Source: Branchipolynoe longqiensis
Lineage: Eukaryota; Annelida; Polychaeta; Phyllodocida; Polynoidae
DNA: 64,000 nucleotides
Reading direction: 5' to 3'
NCBI GenBank assembly: GCA_030323885.1
Contig: CM059198.1
Coordinates: 7,958,086 to 8,022,085, forward strand
The position numbers and the translations under genes were made by a program. The notes under the pieces were generated by a model. The model searched no databases and was not told the origin of the DNA. It saw only the letters and a program-made list of their open reading frames with translations. Positions 3,069-64,000 of the stretch are shown here, piece by piece; the first letter of the stretch is position 1; every line of letters begins with the position of its first letter.

Positions 3069-3185
3069 TCGCAGAGTTGAATACAATTGCAGCACGTGAC
3101 AAAGCTGATTGGGATCGGATGGCCACTGTACTTAACAAGTGCAAGGGATTGTGGGAAGGTTCAGCGTGTTGGGGCTGAAACTGGT

Positions 3186-3577
3186 AGCAGCTTGATAGTG
3201 TCATGTGGGTGGTGCAAATGGGAAATAGTGCGCCTAGTGTGGGAGTCGAACCCACGTCACTTGCATTCCGCGCTCATAGCAGCTTGATAGTGTCGTGGGG
3301 GGGGGGTGATGTAAATAGGAAATATTGCGCCTAGAGCGGGAATCGAACCCACGTCTCTTGCATTCCGCGCTCATAGCAGCTTGATAGTGTCGTGGGGGTG
3401 ATGTAAATAGGAAATATTGCGCCTAGAGCGGGAATCGAACCCACGTCTCTTGCATTCCGCGCTCATAGCAGCTTGATAGTGTTGTGGGGGGGGGGGTGAT
3501 GTAAATATGAAACATTGCACCTAGACCTGGAATCGAACCCACGTCTCTTGCATTCCGCGCTCATAGCAGCTTGATAG
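3186..3577 (-). repeat. ~95-bp tandem amplification of a TRIM LTR end plus flank
   Basis: AGCAGCTTGATAG recurs at 3186, 3278, 3375, 3467 and 3565 (spacing 92, 97, 92, 98). Each unit joins that flank to the inner part of a TRIM LTR (reverse strand: GGGTGATGTAAATAGGAAAT, box-B-like ATCGAACCCACG, TTGCATTCCGCGCTCA). The last unit is continuous with the TRIM copy at 3578. Confidence 0.8.
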
Positions 3578-4062
3578 TGTCATGGGGGGGTGATGTAAAT
3601 AGGAAATATTGCACCTAGAGCGGGAATCGAATCCACATCTCTTGCATTCCGTGCTAACCATTACAACACCTAGGCTCCCTGATGTCACCACCTTATCCAT
3701 GCCTAGCTGGCCATGCGGACCCTTGCCTGAGAGGTTAGTGCAGACTACTAGACACATCGTCCTGGAATTGTAAGGGCTTTAAATGGTCATTTAATGCTTA
3801 CAATTACATACATACGGGCAATGCACTTGCATATACATATATACACAGGGTAGATTCAATGATCATACAGTGTGTAGCTTGTACAGGATCCTGGTCTCGG
3901 CAACCAGTGTCATGGGGGGAAATATTGCGCCTACAGCGGGAATCAAAACCACATTTCTTGGATTCCAGACCGGTGTCCTGACCATTACACTACCTAGGTT
4001 TCTTGATGTCACCACCCTACCTACTCCTAGCTGGCTATGTGGGTCATTGTCAGATGAGTACA
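3578..4062 (-). mobile_element. TRIM (miniature LTR-type element) with tRNA-like LTRs, degraded
   Basis: Two direct LTR units (about 3578-3753 and 3908-4062) flank a ~150-bp internal part. On the minus strand the internal part starts one base after the upstream LTR with TGGTTGCCGAGACCAGG, one base off the family's primer-binding-site consensus. The LTR at 3908-4062 is shortened by small deletions. Confidence 0.75.
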
Positions 4063-4084
4063 TAGTGAGGCGCTATAGCTTGAG

Positions 4085-9470: not shown

Positions 9471-10199
9471 CAGGGCCCGTATGCAGGAGTCGGTGGTATT
9501 CGGGGGTAGCAAGCCAAAATGGTGGTAGGAGACAATTTCCCGGGTAGGGGCGAAAAATGGTATGCACGAGGTGGTGATAGGCCTAACACCAAAAGCTTAA
9601 CCGGGGTTACCCTACCCCTGATAAATAGGAGGTATAGCGAGTTCATTAGGCCCAAATCTATTCGATGCTGTCATATTTAACAGAATTACATACGCAATAA
9701 GTGAAATTTCATGAAATTAACCCTAAATTCGAAGCAATATTAACACTGCCGCCACAACGGCAGCGATATTAATATTTATATTTTCGAATCGACAAACGTA
9801 AAGTAAACAAATCGCCGCCACCACCGTATCGATGTCTCTTTCCATACTGGCGGCGGCGGCGGTTGCTTGCATTCGTCGATTCGAAAATATTAATATTGCT
9901 GCCGTTGTGGTGGCAGCATTAATATTGCTTCGAATTTAGGGTAAATTTCATGAAATATCACGTATTGCATATGTAATTCTGTTAAATATGATAGCATTTA
10001 ATAGATTTGAGCCTAATATATGACTACAAACGCAGAGGGATTTCCTAAATCTATAAATAACTGCACATGTAGCTATAATCAAAGTGCTACGCGCTCCTGC
10101 ATACCACTTGACACAGTTCCTGACATCGGCGATAGCTACCCGGTAATAGGCTGTAACACCAAAACCCGCTACCACCGACTCCTGCATACAGGCCCAGTT
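9471..10199. mobile_element. Foldback (long inverted repeat) element
   Basis: Outer ends GGGCCCGTATGCAGGAGTCG and, reversed, GGGCCTGTATGCAGGAGTCG. The arms continue inward: TCATATTTAACAGAATTACA against TGTAATTCTGTTAAATATGA, CCCTAAATTCGAAGCAATAT against ATATTGCTTCGAATTTAGGG, TTTTCGAATCGAC against GTCGATTCGAAAA. The loop holds GGCGGCGGCGGCGG. The outer end resembles Harbinger termini; the flanks are TAA and TTA. Confidence 0.82.
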
Positions 10200-10506: not shown

Positions 10507-10687
10507 TGTCGTGGGGGTGATGAAAATGGGAAATATTGCACCGAGAGCGGGACTCAAACCCACATCTCTTTGCATTCCGTGTCAGTGTGCTAACCATTAC
10601 ACCACCTAGGGTCCCTGCTATCACCACACTACCCACGCCTACCTGTCTATGTGCTTACTTGCCTGAAAGTCAGTTCAGACTACTACA
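10507..10687 (-). mobile_element. Solo LTR of the TRIM family
   Basis: A single 181-bp LTR unit (minus strand starts TGTAGTAGTCTGAACTGACT and ends CCCCCACGACA), with its tRNA-like cassette. The left flank is TATA (10503-10506). The right TATA is interrupted by the MITE at 10691; removing that MITE with its ATAT duplication restores ACA|TATA|TG. An isolated unit with its own target duplication is what LTR-LTR recombination leaves. Confidence 0.85.
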
Positions 10688-10690
10688 TAT

Positions 10691-10944
10691 GAGCCTGTCT
10701 CAAAAGGTGATAACTCTTTTTTTGTTGTCCATTGTAAGGATTGACACAAAACAGCACAGAAACAGTTACACTGAAAACACAAGGACATTTGCTTCAAATC
10801 AATATGTATTCTATTGGGATCATGAAACACCATGTACAAAACAAATCAGTTTATCCTGAGCAAATGCATAAGCAGATAATATGTTAATCATTACAATGGA
10901 CAAAGTTTTGTCCCATATTGCTTAGCACCTTTTGAGACTGTCTC
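10691..10944. mobile_element. MITE-P copy (GAGCCTGTCTC termini)
   Basis: Ends GAGCCTGTCTCAAAAGGTG and, reversed, GAGACTGTCTCAAAAGGTG; ATAT on both sides (10687-10690, 10945-10948). The interior has AACAGCACAGAAACAGTTAC and TTTATCCTGAGCAAATGCAT, as in copies at 26930, 47681 and 58873. Confidence 0.88.
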
Positions 10945-10948
10945 ATAT

Positions 10949-11979: not shown

Positions 11980-12482
11980 TGTCGTGGGGGTGATGAAAAT
12001 GGGAAATACTGCGCCTAGAGCGGGACTCGAACCCACATCTCTTTGCATTCCGGGCCAGTGTGCTAACCATTACACCACCTAGGCTCCCTGATATCAACAC
12101 ACTCCCCACGCCTACCTGTCTATGTGGTTACTTGCCTGAGAGGTCAGTGCAGACCACTACACTCGTCCCCCTGGAATTGTAAGTCTTGTAATGCTTACAA
12201 TTACATACATACAGGCAATGCACTTACACATACATACACCGGGTAGGTTCAACAACCATACAGCGCAAAGCTTGTACAGGATCCTGATCACGGCAACCAG
12301 TGTCGTGGGGGTGATGAAAATGGGAAATACTGCACCTAGAGCGGGACCCGAACCCACATCCCCTTGCACCCCGGGCCAGTGTGCTAACCATTACACCACC
12401 TAGGCTCCCGGATATCAACACACTCCCCACGCCTACCTATCTATGTGGTTACTTGCCTGAGAGGTCAATGCAGACCACTACA
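11980..12482 (-). mobile_element. TRIM, complete, with tRNA-like LTRs
   Basis: 503 bp, flanked by ATAC on both sides (11976-11979, 12483-12486). The two LTRs (11980-12161, 12301-12482) are each 182 bp, start TG and end CA when read on the minus strand. Internal region 12162-12300: the primer-binding site TGGTTGCCGTGATCAGG lies one base inside the 5' LTR (minus-strand end at 12299), and the purine tract CCAGGGGGACGAG abuts the 3' LTR. Each LTR holds a tRNA-like cassette with box A (TGGTGTAATGG) and box B (GGTTCGAGTCC or close). It sits inside a SINE-A copy. Confidence 0.9.
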
Positions 12483-33085: not shown

Positions 33086-33386
33086 CCCTATAATACTAAG
33101 ACGGTTCACTCAGCCTGTACTGTGTAATCAAAATGATCAAACCAACCACTTGGTGCGCTGGCTGTTCTCTTGGTTAAACAGGTGCTATATTATATGTATA
33201 CATGTGTAGTGGTCTGCACTGACCTCTCAGGCAAGGAGCTGCATAGACAGGTAGGCGTGGGTAGTGTGTTGATATCAGGGAACCTAGGTGGTGTATGTGT
33301 TAGCACACTGGCCTGGAATGCAAAGAGATGTGGGTTCGAGTCCCACTCTATGTGCAATATTTCCCATTTTCACCACCCCCATGACA

Positions 33387-33405
33387 CTGGTTCCCATGAC
33401 CAGGA
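33387..33405 (+). promoter_or_regulatory. Primer-binding site of TRIM (tRNA-His type)
   Basis: Consensus over copies is TGGTTGCCGTGACCAGGAT. From memory, invertebrate tRNA-His ends ...CCTGGTCACGGCACCA, whose complement is TGGTGCCGTGACCAGG. The copy at 39701 reads TGGTGCCGTGACC without the extra T. Confidence 0.7.
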
Positions 33406-33605
33406 TTCTGTACAAGCTACGCGTTGGATAGTTGTTGAACCTACCCTGCGTATGTAAGGGCGTTCGTTGCCTTGCCTGTGTGTATGTAATTGTAAGCATA
33501 AAAAGACTTACAATTCCAGGGGGACGAGTGTAGTGGTCTGCACTGACCTCTCAGGCAAGGAGCCACATAGACAGGTAGGCATGGGTAGTGTGTTGATATC
33601 AGGGA

Positions 33606-33677
33606 GCCTAGGTGGTGTAATGGTTAGCACACTGGCCCAGAATGCAAAGAGATGTGGGTTCGAGTTCCGCTCTAGGC
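33606..33677 (+). promoter_or_regulatory. tRNA-like Pol III promoter cassette inside the TRIM LTR
   Basis: 72 nt with a 7-bp acceptor stem (GCCTAGG with TCTAGGC), a 4-bp D stem (GTGT with ACAC) and a T arm around GGTTCGAG. Box A TGGTGTAATGG is 33613-33623. The D arm resembles tRNA-Gln. The anticodon arm does not pair, so it is not a tRNA gene. The 5' LTR has an exact box B, GGTTCGAGTCC, at 33333-33343. Confidence 0.8.
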
Positions 33678-33714
33678 ACAATATTTCCCATTTTCACCAC
33701 CCCCACGACACATG

Positions 33715-34055
33715 TATATATGAATGTGAAAGCTGTGTGATGATGCTGATGCTGATGATGATGCTGATGATGATGTATATTTGTTCATAGCAATTTCATA
33801 TTGATGTGTATTCATACTTACCTATCTCATGTATAATATAATTGTATGTGTTTACATGTGAAACACCAACCAGCAGGTGGGCCGATCAAACCCACCACAA
33901 GGTGGCACTGCAAGATTTACAGTACCATGGGAGAGATAGGGAGTGAGCTGTCTTAGTATTATAGGGTCTTTGGGCAGCAACAAGTATCAATTTTGTAAGT
34001 CCTTGGTTTGACTCGGCTGGGACTGGAAGTCCTGACCATCTGCACGGAAGGCCTG
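33715..34055. other. GATGCT microsatellite and SINE-A scrap
   Basis: (GATGATGCT)n at 33738-33772. GCAACAAGTATCAATTTTGT (about 33975) is a SINE-A fragment in reverse. Remainder unassigned. Confidence 0.55.
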
Positions 34056-35415: not shown

Positions 35416-35813
35416 TGTAGTGGTCTGCACTGCCCTCTAAGGCAAGGAGCCCCATAGACGGTAGGCATGTGTAGTATGGTGATATCAGCGAGCCTAGGTG
35501 GTGCAATCATTAGCACACTGGCCAGCAATGCAAAAAGATGTGGGTTCGAGTCCCGCTCTAGGCACAATATTTCCCATTGTCATCACCCCCATGACACTGG
35601 TTGCCATGACCATGATCCTGTACAAGCTACGCGCTGTATAGTTGTTGAACCTACCCTGTGTATGTAAAGGTAAGTGCATTGTCTATATGTATGTAATTGT
35701 AAGAATTAAAAGACTTACAATCTCTGGGTGATGAGTGTAGTGGTCTGCACTGATCTCTCAGGCAAGGAGTCGCATAGACGCAATATTTCCCCATTTTCAT
35801 CACCCCCACAACA
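35416..35813 (+). mobile_element. TRIM with 3' LTR that lost the tRNA-like cassette
   Basis: TATA at 35412-35415 and 35814-35817 inside an (AT)n tract. 5' LTR 35416-35596 (181 bp), internal 35597-35735, 3' LTR 35736-35813, only 78 bp: GCATAGACG is joined directly to CAATATTTCC, deleting the tRNA-like segment. Confidence 0.88.
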
Positions 35814-39504: not shown

Positions 39505-40080
39505 AGATCTGTACCAGTCGGCACTGACAATTTGACATCGCAGGCAAGGAGGCGCATATACGGGTGGGTGTGGATAGGGTCATGACATCAGGGAGTCTAG
39601 ATGGTGTAATGGTTACCACACAGACCCAGAATGCAAGAGAGGTGGGCTCGATTCCCACTCTAGGTGCAATATTTCCCATTGTGATCACCCACTGCGACAC
39701 TGGTGCCGTGACCATGATCCTGTGCAAACTATGCACTGTATGGTATCGAACTCTTGTTGATTTTAGACTATTATGAATGTGAATGAATGTCAAATAGTAT
39801 GGCTGGAAGACTAGTGGTTGGGCACTGAACAAAATACCTTTATTCGCTGAATAAATGATCATTCACCCACACAAATGGTCGTTGAACCTACCCTCTGCAT
39901 GGATATGTAAGTGCATTGCCTGTATGATTGTAATTGTAATTGTAAATGTCCATTTAAAAGACTTACAATTCCAGGGGGACAAGTGTAGTAGTCTGCACTG
40001 ACCTCTCAGGCAAGGACCCACATACACAGGTGTGTGTGGATAGGGTGATGACATCAGAGAGCCTAGGTGATGAAATGATA
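39505..40080 (+). mobile_element. TRIM, old copy with internal insertion and truncated 3' LTR
   Basis: 5' LTR to 39699 (AGATGGTGTAATGGTTACCA, GCTCGATTCCCACTCTAG), primer-binding site TGGTGCCGTGACC at 39701, about 130 bp of foreign sequence at 39750-39880, purine tract AGGGGGACAAG, then 3' LTR from 39984, cut near 40080. Confidence 0.8.
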
Positions 40081-40189: not shown

Positions 40190-40520
40190 CGGCCATATGG
40201 GATGGCCAAGAGAGTTGAGCGTCCGGCTCCTGGATTGGTAGATCGTGGGATTCGAACCCACAGGATCGAACCCTAGTCAATTCAAACCATTGACTTAACA
40301 ATTGATTATTGTCGCTCCCTAGCCTGGAGCTCGGCATAATTAGGACAGGGCAAGGACTCATTGACTCATTGTCAGGATAATCACATCATGATGCTGAGCT
40401 CCCAATGGGGCATCACTAAAAAGTCACCACCATGAGTGTGCATTGTCACAAGTCGGGACACGTCCTGATATGACCTTAGATGCTCCAAGGACGTACAACT
40501 CCAGCAATCAGCCAACCAAC
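40190..40520 (+). mobile_element. SINE-A, near full length
   Basis: Head GATCGTGGGATTCGAACCCA, body CGCTCCCTAGCCTGGAGCTC, tail GATGCTCCAAGGACGTACAA. Confidence 0.86.
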
Positions 40521-51249: not shown

Positions 51250-51705
51250 TGTTAGTGGGTAGTGTGTTGATATCAGGGAGCCTAGGTGGTGTAATGGTTA
51301 GCACACTGGCCCGGAATGCAAAGAGATGTGAGTTTGAGTCCCGCACTAGGCACAATAATTCCCATTTTCATCACCCCCCATGACACTGGTTGCTGTGACC
51401 AGGATCCTTTACAAGCTATGCACTGTATAGTTTTTTTCCTTACCCTGTGTATGTGTTAGTGCATTGCCTGTATGTATGTAATTGTAAGCATTAAAAGACT
51501 TACCATTCCAAGGGGGACGAGTGTAGTGGTCTGCACTTACCTCTCAGGCAAGTAACCACATAGACAGGTAGGCGTGGGTAATGTGTTGATATCAGGGAGC
51601 CTAGGTGATGTAATGCTTACCACACTGGCCCGGAATGCAAAGAGATGTGGGTTTGAGTCCCACTCTAGGCGCAATATATCCCATTTTCATCCCCCCCCAA
51701 CAACA
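51250..51705 (+). mobile_element. TRIM, 5'-truncated
   Basis: Partial 5' LTR to 51385 (box A TGGTGTAATGG present), primer-binding site TGGTTGCTGTGACCAGG at 51387, purine tract AAGGGGGACGAG, complete 3' LTR 51522-51705. Confidence 0.86.
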
Positions 51706-52884: not shown

Positions 52885-53865
52885 GTATGTTTCAGTAGTT
52901 CTCCGTCATTAAGTCTATATCCATATGTGTTTCAATAGTTATCCATTATTAACGCGTATGTCTGGCTGTCTTCAATTCTAGCAGTTATCCGTCATTAAGG
53001 CTACTGTCATATATATTATGTTAATAGGTATCCATCATTATCGCATATGGCCAACTGTCATTAAGGCATATCCGGCTGTGTTCTAGTGGTTATCCGTCAT
53101 TAAGGCATATCCGGCTGTGTTCTAGCAGTTATCCGTCATTAAGGAATATCCGGCTGTGTTCTAGTAGTTATCCGTCATTAAGCCATATCCGGCTGTGTTC
53201 TAATACTTATCCATCATTAAGAAATGTACGGCTGTGTTCTAGTATTTATCCGTCATTAAGGCATATCCAGCTGCATTTTTGTTGATATCAGTTATTAAGG
53301 CATATTCGGCTGCATTCTAGCAGTTATTCATCATTAAGGAATATCTGGCTGTGTTCTAGTAGATATCTGTCATTAAGGCATATCCGGCTGTGTTCTAGTA
53401 GTTACCTGTCATTAAGAAATGTACGGCTGTGTTCTAGTGGTTATCCGTCATTAAAGCATATCCGGCTGCATTCTAGTAGTTATCCGTCATTAAGCCATAT
53501 CCGGCTGGATTCTAATAGTTATCCATCATTAAGGCATATCCGGCTGTGTTCTAGTAGTTATCCGTCATTAAGGAATATGGTCGGGTGTGTTCTAGTAGGT
53601 ATCCATCATTAAGGCATGTCCGGCTGCATCTTGTAGGTATCCGCCATGAAGGCATATCCGGATGTGTTTTAGTTGTTATCCATCATTAAGGCATATGGCC
53701 AGCATTGTTCTAGTCATTATCCGTCATTAAGGCATATCCTGCTGCATTTTAGTAGTTATCTGTTAGTAAGGCGTATCTGGCTGTGTTCTAGTAGTTATCC
53801 ATCATTAAGGCATATCCGGCTGTGTTCTAGTAGTTATTCGTGATTTAGGCATATCTGGCATATCA
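52885..53865. repeat. 39-bp minisatellite, first block
   Basis: Units TTATCCGTCATTAAGGCATA plus TCCGGCTGTGTTCTAGTAG, about 25 copies with point changes. Confidence 0.93.
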
Positions 53866-54238
53866 TCAGCGAGCGGTATCTCCGTCTGTGTGTCAGTCTC
53901 CATCTGTCCGTGAGGAGTATCTCCATCTGTGTGTCAGTCTCCATCTGTCAGTGAGGAGTATCTCCGTCTGTGTGTCAGTCTCCATCCATCAGTGAGGAGT
54001 ATATCTGTGTGTGTGTTGGTCTCCATCTGTCAGTGAGGGGTATCTCAGACTGTATGTCAGTCTCCATCTGTCAGTTAGGGGCACCTGCATGTGCATGTTA
54101 GTCTCCATTTCTCAGTGAGGAGTATCTCTGTTTGTGTGTAAGTCTCCATCTGTCATTCAGACATACACATCTCCGTCGGTGTGTCAATCTCCATCTGTCA
54201 GTGAGGGATATATCTGTATGTGTGTTAGTCTCCATCTG
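53227..54238. repeat. 1012-bp tandem duplication, copy 1
   Basis: Begins TACGGCTGTGTTCTAGTATT. It spans the end of the 39-bp array and the start of the 41-bp array. Matches 54239-55250 at a constant offset of 1012. Confidence 0.93.
53866..54238. repeat. 41-bp minisatellite, first block
   Basis: Units TCTCCATCTGTCAGTGAGG plus GGTATCTCCGTCTGTGTGTTAG. This array differs in sequence from the 39-bp one but directly adjoins it. Confidence 0.93.
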
Positions 54239-55250
54239 TACGGCTGTGTTCTAGTATTTATCCGTCATTAAGGCATATCCGGCTGCATTTTTGTTGATAT
54301 CAGTTATTAAGGCATATTCGGCTGCATTCTAGCAGTTATTCATCATTAAGGAATATCTGGCTGTGTTCTAGTAGATATCCGTCATTAAGGCATATCCGGC
54401 TGTGTTCTAGTAGTTATCTGTCATTAAGAAATGTATGGTTGTGTTCTAGTGGTTATCCATCATTAAAGCATATCCGGCTGCATTCTAGTAGTTATCCGTC
54501 ATTAAGCCATATCCGGCTGGATTCTAGTAGTTATCCATCATTAAGGCATATCCGGCTGTGTTCTAGTAGTTATCCGTCATTAAGGAATATGGTCGGGTGT
54601 GTTCTAGTAGGTATCCATCATTAAGGCATGTCCGGCTGCATCTTGTAGGTATCCGCCATGAAGGCATATCCGGATGTGTTTTAGTTGTTATCCATCATTA
54701 AGGCATATGGCCAGCATTGTTCTAGTCGTTATCCGTCATTAAGGCATATCCTGCTGCATTTTAGTAGTTATCTGTTAGTAAGGCGTATCTGGCTGTGTTC
54801 TAGTAGTTATCCATCATTAAGGCATATCCGGCTGTGTTCTAGTAGTTATTCGTGATTTAGGCATAACTGGCATATCGTCAGCGAGCGGTATCTCCGTCTG
54901 TGTGTCAGTCTCCATCTGTCCGTGAGGAGTATCTCCATCTGTGTGTCAGTCTCCATCTGTCAGTGAGGAGTATCTCCGCCTGTGTGTCAGTCTCCATCCA
55001 TCAGTGAGGAGTATATCTGTATATGTGTTGGTCTCCATCTGTCAGTGAGGGGTATCTCAGACTGTATGTCAGTCTCCATCTGTCAGTTAGGGGCACCTGC
55101 ATGTGCATGTTAGTCTCCATTTCTCAGTGAGGAGTATCTCTGTTTGTGTGTAAGTCTCCATCTGTCATTCAGACATACACATCTCCGTCGGTGTGTCAAT
55201 CTCCATCTGTCAGTGAGCGATATATCCGTATGTGTGTTAGTCTCCATCTG
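54239..55250. repeat. 1012-bp tandem duplication, copy 2
   Basis: Near-identical to copy 1 with scattered substitutions. The junction GTCTCCATCTG|TACGGCTG at 54238/54239 joins the 41-bp unit back to the 39-bp unit. Confidence 0.93.
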
Positions 55251-56150
55251 TCAGTGAGGAGTATCTCCATCTGTGTGTTAGTCTCGATCCGTCAGTGAGG
55301 AGTATTTCTGCCTGCGTGTTCGTCTCCATCTGTCAGTGAGGGGAATCTCTGTCTGCATATTAGTCTCCATCCGTCAGTGAGGGGTATCTCCGTCTGTGGT
55401 TAGTGTCCATCTGTCAGTGAGGGGTATCTCCATCTGCATGTTCATCTCCATCCATCAGTCAGGAGTATATCCGTATGTGTGTTAGTCTCCATCTGTCAGT
55501 GAGGGGTATCTCTGTATGTGTGTTAGTCTCCATCTGTCAGTGAGGGGTATCTCTGTCTGCACGTTAGTCTCCATCTGTCAGTGAGGGGTATCTCTGTCTG
55601 TGTGTTAGTCTCCATCCGTCAGTGAGGAGTATCTCCATCTGTATGTCAGCTCCATCCGTCGGTGAGGGGTATCTCCGTCTGTGTGTCAGGCTCCATCTGT
55701 CAGTGAGGAGTACCTCTGACTGTGTGTCAGTTTATATCTGTCAGTGAGGGGTATCTCCGTCTGCGTGTTAGTATCCATCCGTCAGTGAGGAGTATCTCCA
55801 TCTGTATGTCAGCTCCATCCGTCGGTGAGGGGTATCTCCGTCTGTGTGTCAGGCTCCATCTGTCAGTGAGGAGTACCTCTGACTGTGTGTCAGTTTCTAT
55901 CTGTCAGTGAGGGGTATCTCCGTCTGCGTGTTAGTCTCCATCTGTCAGTGAGGGGTACCTCTGACTGTGTGTCAGTTTCCATCTGTCAGTGAGGGGTATC
56001 TCCTTCTGCGTGTTAGTCTCCATCTGTCAGTGAGGGGTACCTTCGTCTGTGTGTCAGTCTCCATCTGTCAGTGAGGAGTATCTCTGTCTGCATGTTAGTC
56101 TCTATCTGTCAGTGAGGGGTACCTCCGTGTGCGTGTCACTCTCCATCTGT
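55251..56150. repeat. 41-bp minisatellite, continuation
   Basis: More 41-bp units, with a 163-bp higher-order repeat (GTATGTCAGCTCCATCCGTC at 55641 and 55804). Confidence 0.92.
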
Positions 56151-56368
56151 CGCCAACTTGCATGCATAATTAATCCCAGTTGATCATGTTTCCCACATCC
56201 CACACACACACATCTATTCCCAGGAAATAAGCACCAATATTAAATCATCTCTTCCTTGTTTGACTTCACTACGCTTATGCTTCCTGTCACGAAATACTGA
56301 GATCTGTTCAACTGATGCGATTACTTGGGATATTGGCATTGCCTGTGAGAATGATCTAATCCAAAATA
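56150..56368. other. Unassigned sequence
   Basis: No feature recognised. Confidence 0.45.
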
Positions 56369-58404: not shown

Positions 58405-58800
58405 GGACTATCCGTCTCCTGTTTTGGTAGATCATGGGATTCGAACCCATGGGTTTGAACCCTGGTTGAGTGAAACCAATGACTTCAACATTAATACTTG
58501 TGGCTTCCTCGCCAGGCGATCGGCATTATTAGGAATAGATGTGGTGATGACTGGTTGGCTCAGTGTCAGGATAATATGACTGATTGGGATATCAGGTCAT
58601 GGTGATGGTGGCCTGGTCTCACAGTATGGAAGCACTGTTAATCTGCCATGAGTGCGCACTGTCACAAGTCAGTACATGTCCTGATATGAGCTTAGATGTT
58701 GCTAGGACGTAAAACAACAAACACACAAAACAAACAAACAAAACAAGACGGTACCCATCCTGATATGACCTTAGATGTTGCCAGGATGTAAAACCAACCG
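58405..58800 (+). mobile_element. SINE-A with duplicated tail
   Basis: Head GATCATGGGATTCGAACCCA, full body, tail GTTGCTAGGACGTAAAACAA with (AAAC)n, then a second tail ACCCATCCTGATATGACCTT...GATGTTGCCAGGATGTAAAA. Confidence 0.85.
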
Positions 58801-58872
58801 ATCACCCTGTCTTACTTAGCAATGAATGTTGCTCCTTGCCTGTGAGGTCAGTGTAGTTCCGGATATTTAAAT

Positions 58873-61547: not shown

Positions 61548-64000
61548 GATGTGACCTTAGATGTTGCTAGGGGGGAACACTCCAACACACAATCTAAGGG
61601 AACTCTATCGCTGTGCTCTTTCTTCCCCTTGCAGCTTTGACACAACTACTTGGTTGAGGTCCTACCTCCCGGCCCCTTCACACCACCCCTTCCTGATATG
61701 ACCTTACATGATGCTAGGACGTAAAACTCCAACAATCAAACAAACAAACATGTTACCTAGCTGTGTCCTTTGTCTGCAGCTTTGACACAGATACTTGGTT
61801 AAGGTCCTAACTCCCGGCCCCGTCACACCACCCCTTCCTGATATGACCTTACGTGATGCTAGGACATAAAACTCCAACAACCAAACAAACAAACATGTCA
61901 CCTAGCTGTGTCCTTTGTCTGCAGCTTTGACACAGATACTTGGTTAAGATCCTACCTCCCGGCCCCGTCACACCGCCCCTTCCTGATATGACCTTAAATG
62001 ATGCAAGGACGTAAAACTCCAACAACCAAACAAACAAACATGTCACCTAGCTGTGTCCTTTGTCTGCAGCTTTGACATGGATACTTGGTTGAGGTCCTAA
62101 CTCCTGCCCCCGTCACACCGCCCCTTCCTGATATGACCTTACGTGATGCTAGGACGTAAAACTCCAACAAGCAAACAAACAAACATGTCACCTAGCTGTG
62201 TCCTTTGTCTGCAGGTTTGACCCGGATACTTGGTTAAGGTCCTACCTCCCGGCCCAGTCACACCACCCCTTCCTGATATAACCTTACGTGATGCTAGGAC
62301 GTAAAACTCCAACAACCAAACAGACAAACATGTCACCTAGCTGTGTCCTTTGTCTGCAGGTTTGACCCGGATACTTGGTTAAGGTCCTACCTCCCGGCCC
62401 AGTCACACCACCCCTTCCTGATATGACCTTAAATGATGCAAGGACGTAAAACTCCAACAACCAAACAAACAAACATGTCACCTAGCTGTGTCCTTTGTCT
62501 GCAGGTTTGACCCGGATACTTGGTTAAGGTCCTACCTCCCGGCCCCGTCACACCGCCCCTTCCTGATATGACCTTAAATGATGCAAGGACATAAAACTCC
62601 AACAACCAAACAAACAAACATGTCACCTAGCTGTGTCCTTTGTCTGCAGCTTTGACACGGATACTTGGTTAAGGTCCTACCTCCCGGCCCCGTCACACCC
62701 CCCCTTCCTGATATGACCTTAAATGATGCTAGGACGTAAAACTCCAACAACCAAACAAACAAACATGTCACCTAGCTGTGTCCTTTGTCTGCAGCTTTGA
62801 CATGGATACTTGGTTAAGGTCCTACCTCCCGGCCCCGTCACACCACCCCTTCCTGATATGACCTTACGTGATGCTAGGATGTAAAACTCCAACAACCAAA
62901 CAAGCAAACATGTCACCTAGCTGTGTCCTTTGTCTGCAGCTTTGACACAGATACTTGGTTAAGGTCCTACCTCCCGGCCCTGTCACACCGCCCCTTCCTG
63001 ATATGACCTTAAATGATGCAAGGACGTAAAACTCCAACAACCAAACAAGCAAACATGTCACCTAGCTGTGTCCTTTGTCTGCAGCTTTGACACGGATACT
63101 TGGTTAAGGTCCTACCTCCCGGCCCCGTCACACCCCCCCTTCCTGATATGACCTTAAATGATGCTAGGACGTAAAACTCCAACAACCAAACAAACAAACA
63201 TGTCACCTAGCTGTGTCCTTTGTCTGCAGCTTTGACACAGATACTTGGTTAAGGTCCTACCTCCCGGCCCCGTCACACCACCACTTCCTGATATGACCTT
63301 AAATGATGCAAGGACGTAAAACTCCAACAACCAAACAAACAAACATGTCACCTAGCTGTGTCCTTTGTCTGCAGGGTTGACACAGATACTTGGTTAAGGT
63401 CCTACCTCCCGGCCCCGTCACACCACCACTTCCTGATATGACCTTACGTGATGCTAGGACGTAAAACTCCAACAACCAAACAAACAAACATGTCACCTAG
63501 CTGTGTCCTTTGTCTGCAGCTTTGACATGGATACTTGGTTAAGGTCCTACCTCCCGGCCCCGTCACACCGCCCCTTCCTGATATGACCTTACGTGATGCT
63601 AGGACGTAAAACTCCAACAACCAAACAAACAAACATGTCACCTAGCTGTGTCCTTTGTCTGCAGCTTTGACACAGATACTTGGTTAAGGTCCTACCTCCC
63701 GGCCCTGTCACACCGCCCCTTCCTGATATGACCTTACGTGATGCTAGGACGTAAAACTCCAACAACCAAACAAACAAACATGTCACCTAGCTGTGTCCTT
63801 TGTCTGCAGGTTTGACCCGGATACTTGGTTAAGGTCCTACCTCCCGGCCCCGTCACACCGCCCCTTCCTGATATGACCTTACGTGATGCTAGGACGTAAA
63901 ACTCCAACAACCAAACAAACAAACATGTCACCTAGCTGTGTGCTGTGTCTGCAGCTTTGACATGGATACTTGGTTAAGGTCCTACCTCCCGGCCCCGTCA
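61548..64000. repeat. 145-bp satellite, about 17 units, open at right edge
   Basis: Strict 145-bp period. A diverged first unit at 61548-61692 is followed by ~16 very similar units. Each unit holds CCTGATATGACCTTACGTGA, TGCTAGGACGTAAAACTCCA and ACAAACAAACA, the SINE-A 3' end, followed by TGTCACCTAGCTGTGTCC, TTTGTCTGCAGCTTTGACAC, TACTTGGTTAAGGTCCTACC and CCCGGCCCCGTCACACC. Minus-strand 65-codon frames repeating every 145 bp are by-products. Confidence 0.96.

Follow-up and report, generated by a model that had tools for sequence, protein, structure and literature searches.

A probable Helenus-type TRIM family with tRNA-like long terminal repeats in the annelid Branchipolynoe longqiensis

The element at 33205-33710 combines direct terminal repeats with a tRNA-like sequence, which raises the question of whether it belongs to the long terminal repeat (LTR) retrotransposons or to the tRNA-derived SINEs. 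We analyzed the element within a 64,000-nucleotide stretch of the Branchipolynoe longqiensis genome, hereafter the window. The family is very probably a Helenus-type TRIM, i.e., an element with tRNA-like LTRs that would be transcribed by RNA polymerase III (Pol III), primed by a host tRNA and mobilized by a helper in trans. The name Helenus was introduced by Kojima in 2024 for TRIMs with a tRNA-like LTR, a primer-binding site and a polypurine tract (PMC10886601), and the class is mentioned in a 2026 meeting report (PMC12859917). Described hosts are fungi, a plant and six animal phyla; the underlying screen was limited to elements under 1000 bp, and families reach up to 1263 bp (PMC10886601). 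The original prediction for this locus was an animal counterpart of the plant Cassandra elements with a tRNA-derived promoter. The structural part of this prediction stands, but its novelty does not, given that Helenus was published in February 2024 (PMC10886601). With this locus, a class of LTR elements that was named only recently has been recovered independently from raw sequence.

The two LTRs of the reported element are 92% identical and enclose an internal part of 142 bp (Table 1). Terminal units of 182 bp with TG...CA ends, spaced about 140 bp apart, had been predicted, and the complete copies show both. Complete repeats across the family start with TG and end with CA. The two complete copies, with 503 and 506 bp, have the length of a TRIM and apparently encode no protein. 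A 110-codon open frame (start codon not required) at 33458-33790 extends beyond the end of the element. Pfam searches on ten others among the 98 open frames listed for the window returned no domain match. Elsewhere in the window, the open frame at 1116-1700 resembles by eye the C-terminal portion of a LINE protein; a Pfam search of this frame gave no match.

Table 1. Coordinates of the reported element's parts, of further copies and of adjoining repeats, numbered along the window.
Feature	Position	Strand	Remarks
5' LTR of reported element	33205..33386	+	direct repeat, 182 bp
3' LTR of reported element	33529..33710	+	direct repeat, 182 bp
tRNA-like cassette, 5' LTR	33282..33354	+	Rfam 39.3 bits
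tRNA-like cassette, 3' LTR	33606..33678	+	Rfam 41.5 bits
Putative primer-binding site	33388..33406	+	resembles tRNA-His complement plus one extra base
Purine-rich tract AGGGGGACGAG, 5' of 3' LTR	33518..33528	+	
Left target duplication CATG	33201..33204	.	flank comparison
Right target duplication CATG	33711..33714	.	flank comparison
Complete copy	11980..12482	-	repeats 95% identical; duplication GTAT in element orientation
Solo LTR	10507..10687	-	duplication TATA with adjoining MITE set aside
MITE beside solo LTR	10690..10945		18/20 terminal inverted bases match; TA duplication
Copy, 3' LTR internally deleted	35416..35813	+	TATA/TATA inside TA repeat
More diverged copy	39510..40077	+	added internal sequence; shortened 3' LTR; no extra base in primer site
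Copy, 5' LTR truncated	51255..51702	+	
More diverged copy	3578..4077	-	first 32 bases assigned to 5' LTR look non-homologous
Tandem array, 92-bp unit, about five copies	3185..3655	-	unit = end of 3' LTR of 3578-4077 plus flank

A BLAST search with 33205-33710 against the 64-kb window recovered six more copies, which brings the family to seven. The copies at 3578-4077, 39510-40077 and 51255-51702 are additional to those predicted originally, and a 31-bp fragment of the repeat lies at 58826-58856. The doubtful 32-base start of the 5' LTR in the copy at 3578-4077 was masked in a rerun of the LTR comparisons. The 92-bp array at 3185-3655 is probably a tandem duplication that arose later, because its unit includes sequence beyond the LTR end. 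A 25-base piece of the LTR searched in viral contigs gave no match. The window also contains a 145-bp satellite at 61630-64000 (16.4 copies, 95% matches, reaching the window end), an inverted repeat at 9645-10017, whose arms of 133 bp are 91% complementary and separated by 107 bp, and extended arrays of units of 39 and 41 bp at 53057-56151.

The flanks of the insertions indicate target-site duplications of 4 bp. The predicted CATG flanks of the reported element match exactly over 4 bp on both sides. Likewise, the complete copy at 11980-12482 is flanked by GTAT on both sides in element orientation, which corresponds to the predicted ATAC on the plus strand. The predicted TATA flanks of the copy at 35416-35813 are present, though they are weak evidence because the copy is embedded in a TA repeat and has lost part of the interior of its second LTR. 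The solo LTR has raw flanks of CATA and TATA, which differ by one base; once the MITE is removed, the flanks become TATA/TATA as the original prediction had it. Exact duplications are hence seen at three of four scorable insertions in the unedited sequence and at all four with the MITE set aside, the one in the TA repeat included. The remaining three copies were left unscored, with one end missing or ambiguous. Random intervals drawn from the same window matched at all four flanking bases in 1717 of 200000 cases (0.0086).

The internal part starts and ends with the sites expected of an LTR element. All six copies with an internal part have a C after the 5' repeat, followed by TGG as in a primer-type site; the site itself is TGGT(T)GCCGTGAC-like and begins one base past the LTR. 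Human tRNA-His has a 3' end whose DNA complement starts with TGGTGCCGTGACTCGGAT (primer quoted in PMC12217144). The site matches this complement at 14-15 of 18 positions in each of the six copies, with the fifth base skipped in five, and a differing tRNA of the host may account for the mismatches that remain. The copy at 39510-40077 matches without a gap (15/18). As a control, both strands of the window were scanned, and its site at 39701 is the only ungapped match of at least 14/18. When the fifth base is left out, a rule picked after the sites had been seen, the two strands contain exactly five sites of at least 14/18, and these are the sites of the five other copies. The match makes tRNA-His a likely primer of the family, even though the extra base in five of six sites would weaken the pairing. 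A GGGGGAC-type purine tract lies 5' of the 3' repeat in four of the six copies and has decayed in the other two (35416 and 3578).

The LTRs carry a genuine tRNA-like cassette, as predicted: Rfam model RF00005 at gathering score gives eight matches in the window, and all eight fall inside repeats of this family. The cassette occupies LTR positions 78-150, with box A at 85-95 and box B at 129-139. Eleven repeats retain it with both boxes, and eight of these pass the gathering score. The cassette at 10539-10611 reaches 28.7 versus a cut-off of 29, and both cassettes of the copy at 3578-4077 had no Rfam tRNA match at E up to 0.2. The Rfam alignments show the proposed acceptor stem GCCTAGG/TCTAGGC with seven pairs, including one G-U. 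The description of the boxes as exact or near-exact holds more loosely, with TGGTGTAATGG as box A in six and GGTTCGAGTCC as box B in three of the eleven repeats. ARAGORN calls six tRNA genes in the window, four of them within these LTRs. The two calls outside the family, at 40251-40339 and 58426-58524, are without Rfam support.

The cassette probably provides the family with its promoter. Pol III would start near the cassette of the 5' LTR, at LTR position 78, and the transcript would pass through the internal part and end at the TTTT at positions 163-166 of the 3' LTR. This would place U3 at positions 1-77, R at about 78-166 (about 90 nt) and U5 at about 167-182. Reverse transcription would then be primed just past the 5' LTR by a tRNA of the host, most likely tRNA-His, and the purine tract would prime the second strand. 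The enzymes would be supplied in trans by an LTR retrotransposon, which would also make the 4-bp duplications. By analogy with animal Helenus, for which Gypsy helpers were inferred (PMC10886601), this helper might be a Gypsy element.

The positions of the T runs provide a testable map of such a transcript. In both complete copies, sense-strand runs of at least four T are confined to one place per repeat, LTR position 163. Pol III should be halted early by the run in the 5' LTR unless termination is leaky. The 5' LTRs of the copies at 35416 and 39510 have TTGT in place of TTTT, the copy at 3578-4077 lacks the T run in both LTRs, and the internal part of the copy at 51255 contains seven T in a row. 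That the TTTT acts as a leaky terminator, in a Helenus family from a host lineage unlisted in 2024, is a tentative and quite unlikely reading. Under leaky termination, most transcripts would end within the 5' LTR and yield a small tRNA-like RNA, leaving the template to be made by read-through alone. The strength of termination would then set the transposition rate and fix R.

The alternative that survives best is a TRIM transcribed by Pol II from U3, in which the tRNA-like part of the LTR is left over from a SINE and plays a passive role. LTR elements mostly rely on Pol II, and a Pol III transcript would be hindered by the TTTT that both complete copies have in the 5' LTR. In addition, boxes A and B are no better kept between copies than the remainder of the repeat. 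Among the copies in the window, changes versus the consensus amount to 12/131 in box A and 13/121 in box B, compared with 88/883 upstream, 44/558 in the remaining cassette and 27/370 in the tail. The test for better conservation of the boxes was thus negative, with no sign of selection between copies, though it is a weak test because inserted copies drift freely. Against a passive remnant, the cassette is still recognized as a tRNA at gathering score in most of the repeats that retain it, and sequence conservation around boxes A and B is reported for published Helenus LTRs (PMC10886601). We consider Pol II transcription possible but rather unlikely.

LTR copying produces two repeats that are identical at the birth of an insertion, whereas the two units of a copied dimer are separate lineages. 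The distinction bears on a dimeric tRNA SINE, spread by LINEs and with its two units simply fixed as a dimer, which would account for tRNA-like units with A and B boxes and for the short length. We compared the true pairing of 5' with 3' repeats with all 720 possible pairings. The mean difference was 0.137 for own pairs versus 0.171 for all pairings, and 2/720 pairings were as close, the true one included. The outcome was similar after masking (0.128 versus 0.161; 2/720 as close) and after dropping CG/TG/CA columns (0.121 versus 0.163; 2/720 as close). States exclusive to two LTRs numbered seven in the six own pairs versus 14 in the 60 cross pairs. All seven sit in three pairs, and the other three own pairs share none. 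After masking, the 60 cross pairs had 11 exclusive states and 6/720 pairings reached the own total.

Individual repeats show this kinship less clearly, which counts in favor of a dimer. The own partner was strictly nearest for only two of 12 paired LTRs (one tie), or three of 12 after masking (one tie), and another unit was nearer for nine (eight masked). Own partners are rarely nearest because little-changed LTRs are close to everything. The pairing test favors own pairs where nearest-neighbor counts do not because every LTR enters each pairing once, whether it is close to the consensus or distant from it. In the tree, own partners are united only for 11980-12482 (89/89) and for 39510-40077 (88/80), and no repeats are grouped by position, i.e., 5' versus 3'. 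No branch reaches the tool's starred support and eight of ten branches are open. Jointly, the kinship of LTRs within copies favors LTR copying with modest power, as single pairs often fail to stand out.

The duplications, the primer site and the purine tract weigh more for LTR copying than LTR kinship does. The duplications are accompanied by fixed CA ends at the four scored insertions, where neither the variable A-rich tails nor the 8-20-bp duplications of SINEs are found; the ends inspected have no A-rich tail. The solo unit carries its own duplication, which also argues against a fixed dimer. Together with the TG...CA ends and the pairing of units by copy, these features bear out the prediction of a TRIM-type LTR element and leave the dimeric SINE very improbable. 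The notion that the LTRs carry real tRNA genes as cargo is barely credible despite the ARAGORN calls, as the called anticodons vary (GGA twice, GGG and AGA), four of the five alignments displayed have unpaired positions in the anticodon stem while the fifth omits that arm, and a single-strand fold of 33606-33678 forms no cloverleaf and scarcely surpasses shuffled sequences (z -1.64; 15/200 equally good). The poor anticodon arm and the non-cloverleaf fold make the cassette more likely a promoter than a working tRNA.

The Helenus-type reading thus remains preferred, and the likeness is to the published description of the class. The family shows five defining features of Helenus: TRIM length without apparent coding capacity, a tRNA-derived part in both LTRs, a primer-binding site, a polypurine tract and 4-bp duplications, the last as described for animal families (PMC10886601). 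The tRNA-His-like primer site resembles some vertebrate and bivalve families, for which tRNA-His priming is described, and the solo LTR resembles those reported for fungal families (PMC10886601). The passages of that description consulted here do not mention an extra base at this site (PMC10886601). Cassandra of plants is likewise a TRIM with a Pol III-type promoter in its LTR, but its promoter derives from 5S rRNA and not from a tRNA (PMC10886601). An assignment to Cassandra was rejected, as Rfam finds tRNA in the window and no 5S rRNA, both with the gathering cut-off and with the limit relaxed to an E of 0.2. Ajax of nemerteans is a further TRIM with a small-RNA promoter in its LTR and differs in carrying part of a 5S rRNA and in having 5-bp duplications (PMC10886601). 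The tRNA-derived SINEs (SINE2) share the tRNA-like head with A and B boxes, but they have no LTRs, primer-binding site or polypurine tract and are spread by LINEs. Helenus-type elements seem to borrow a Pol III promoter much as SINEs do.
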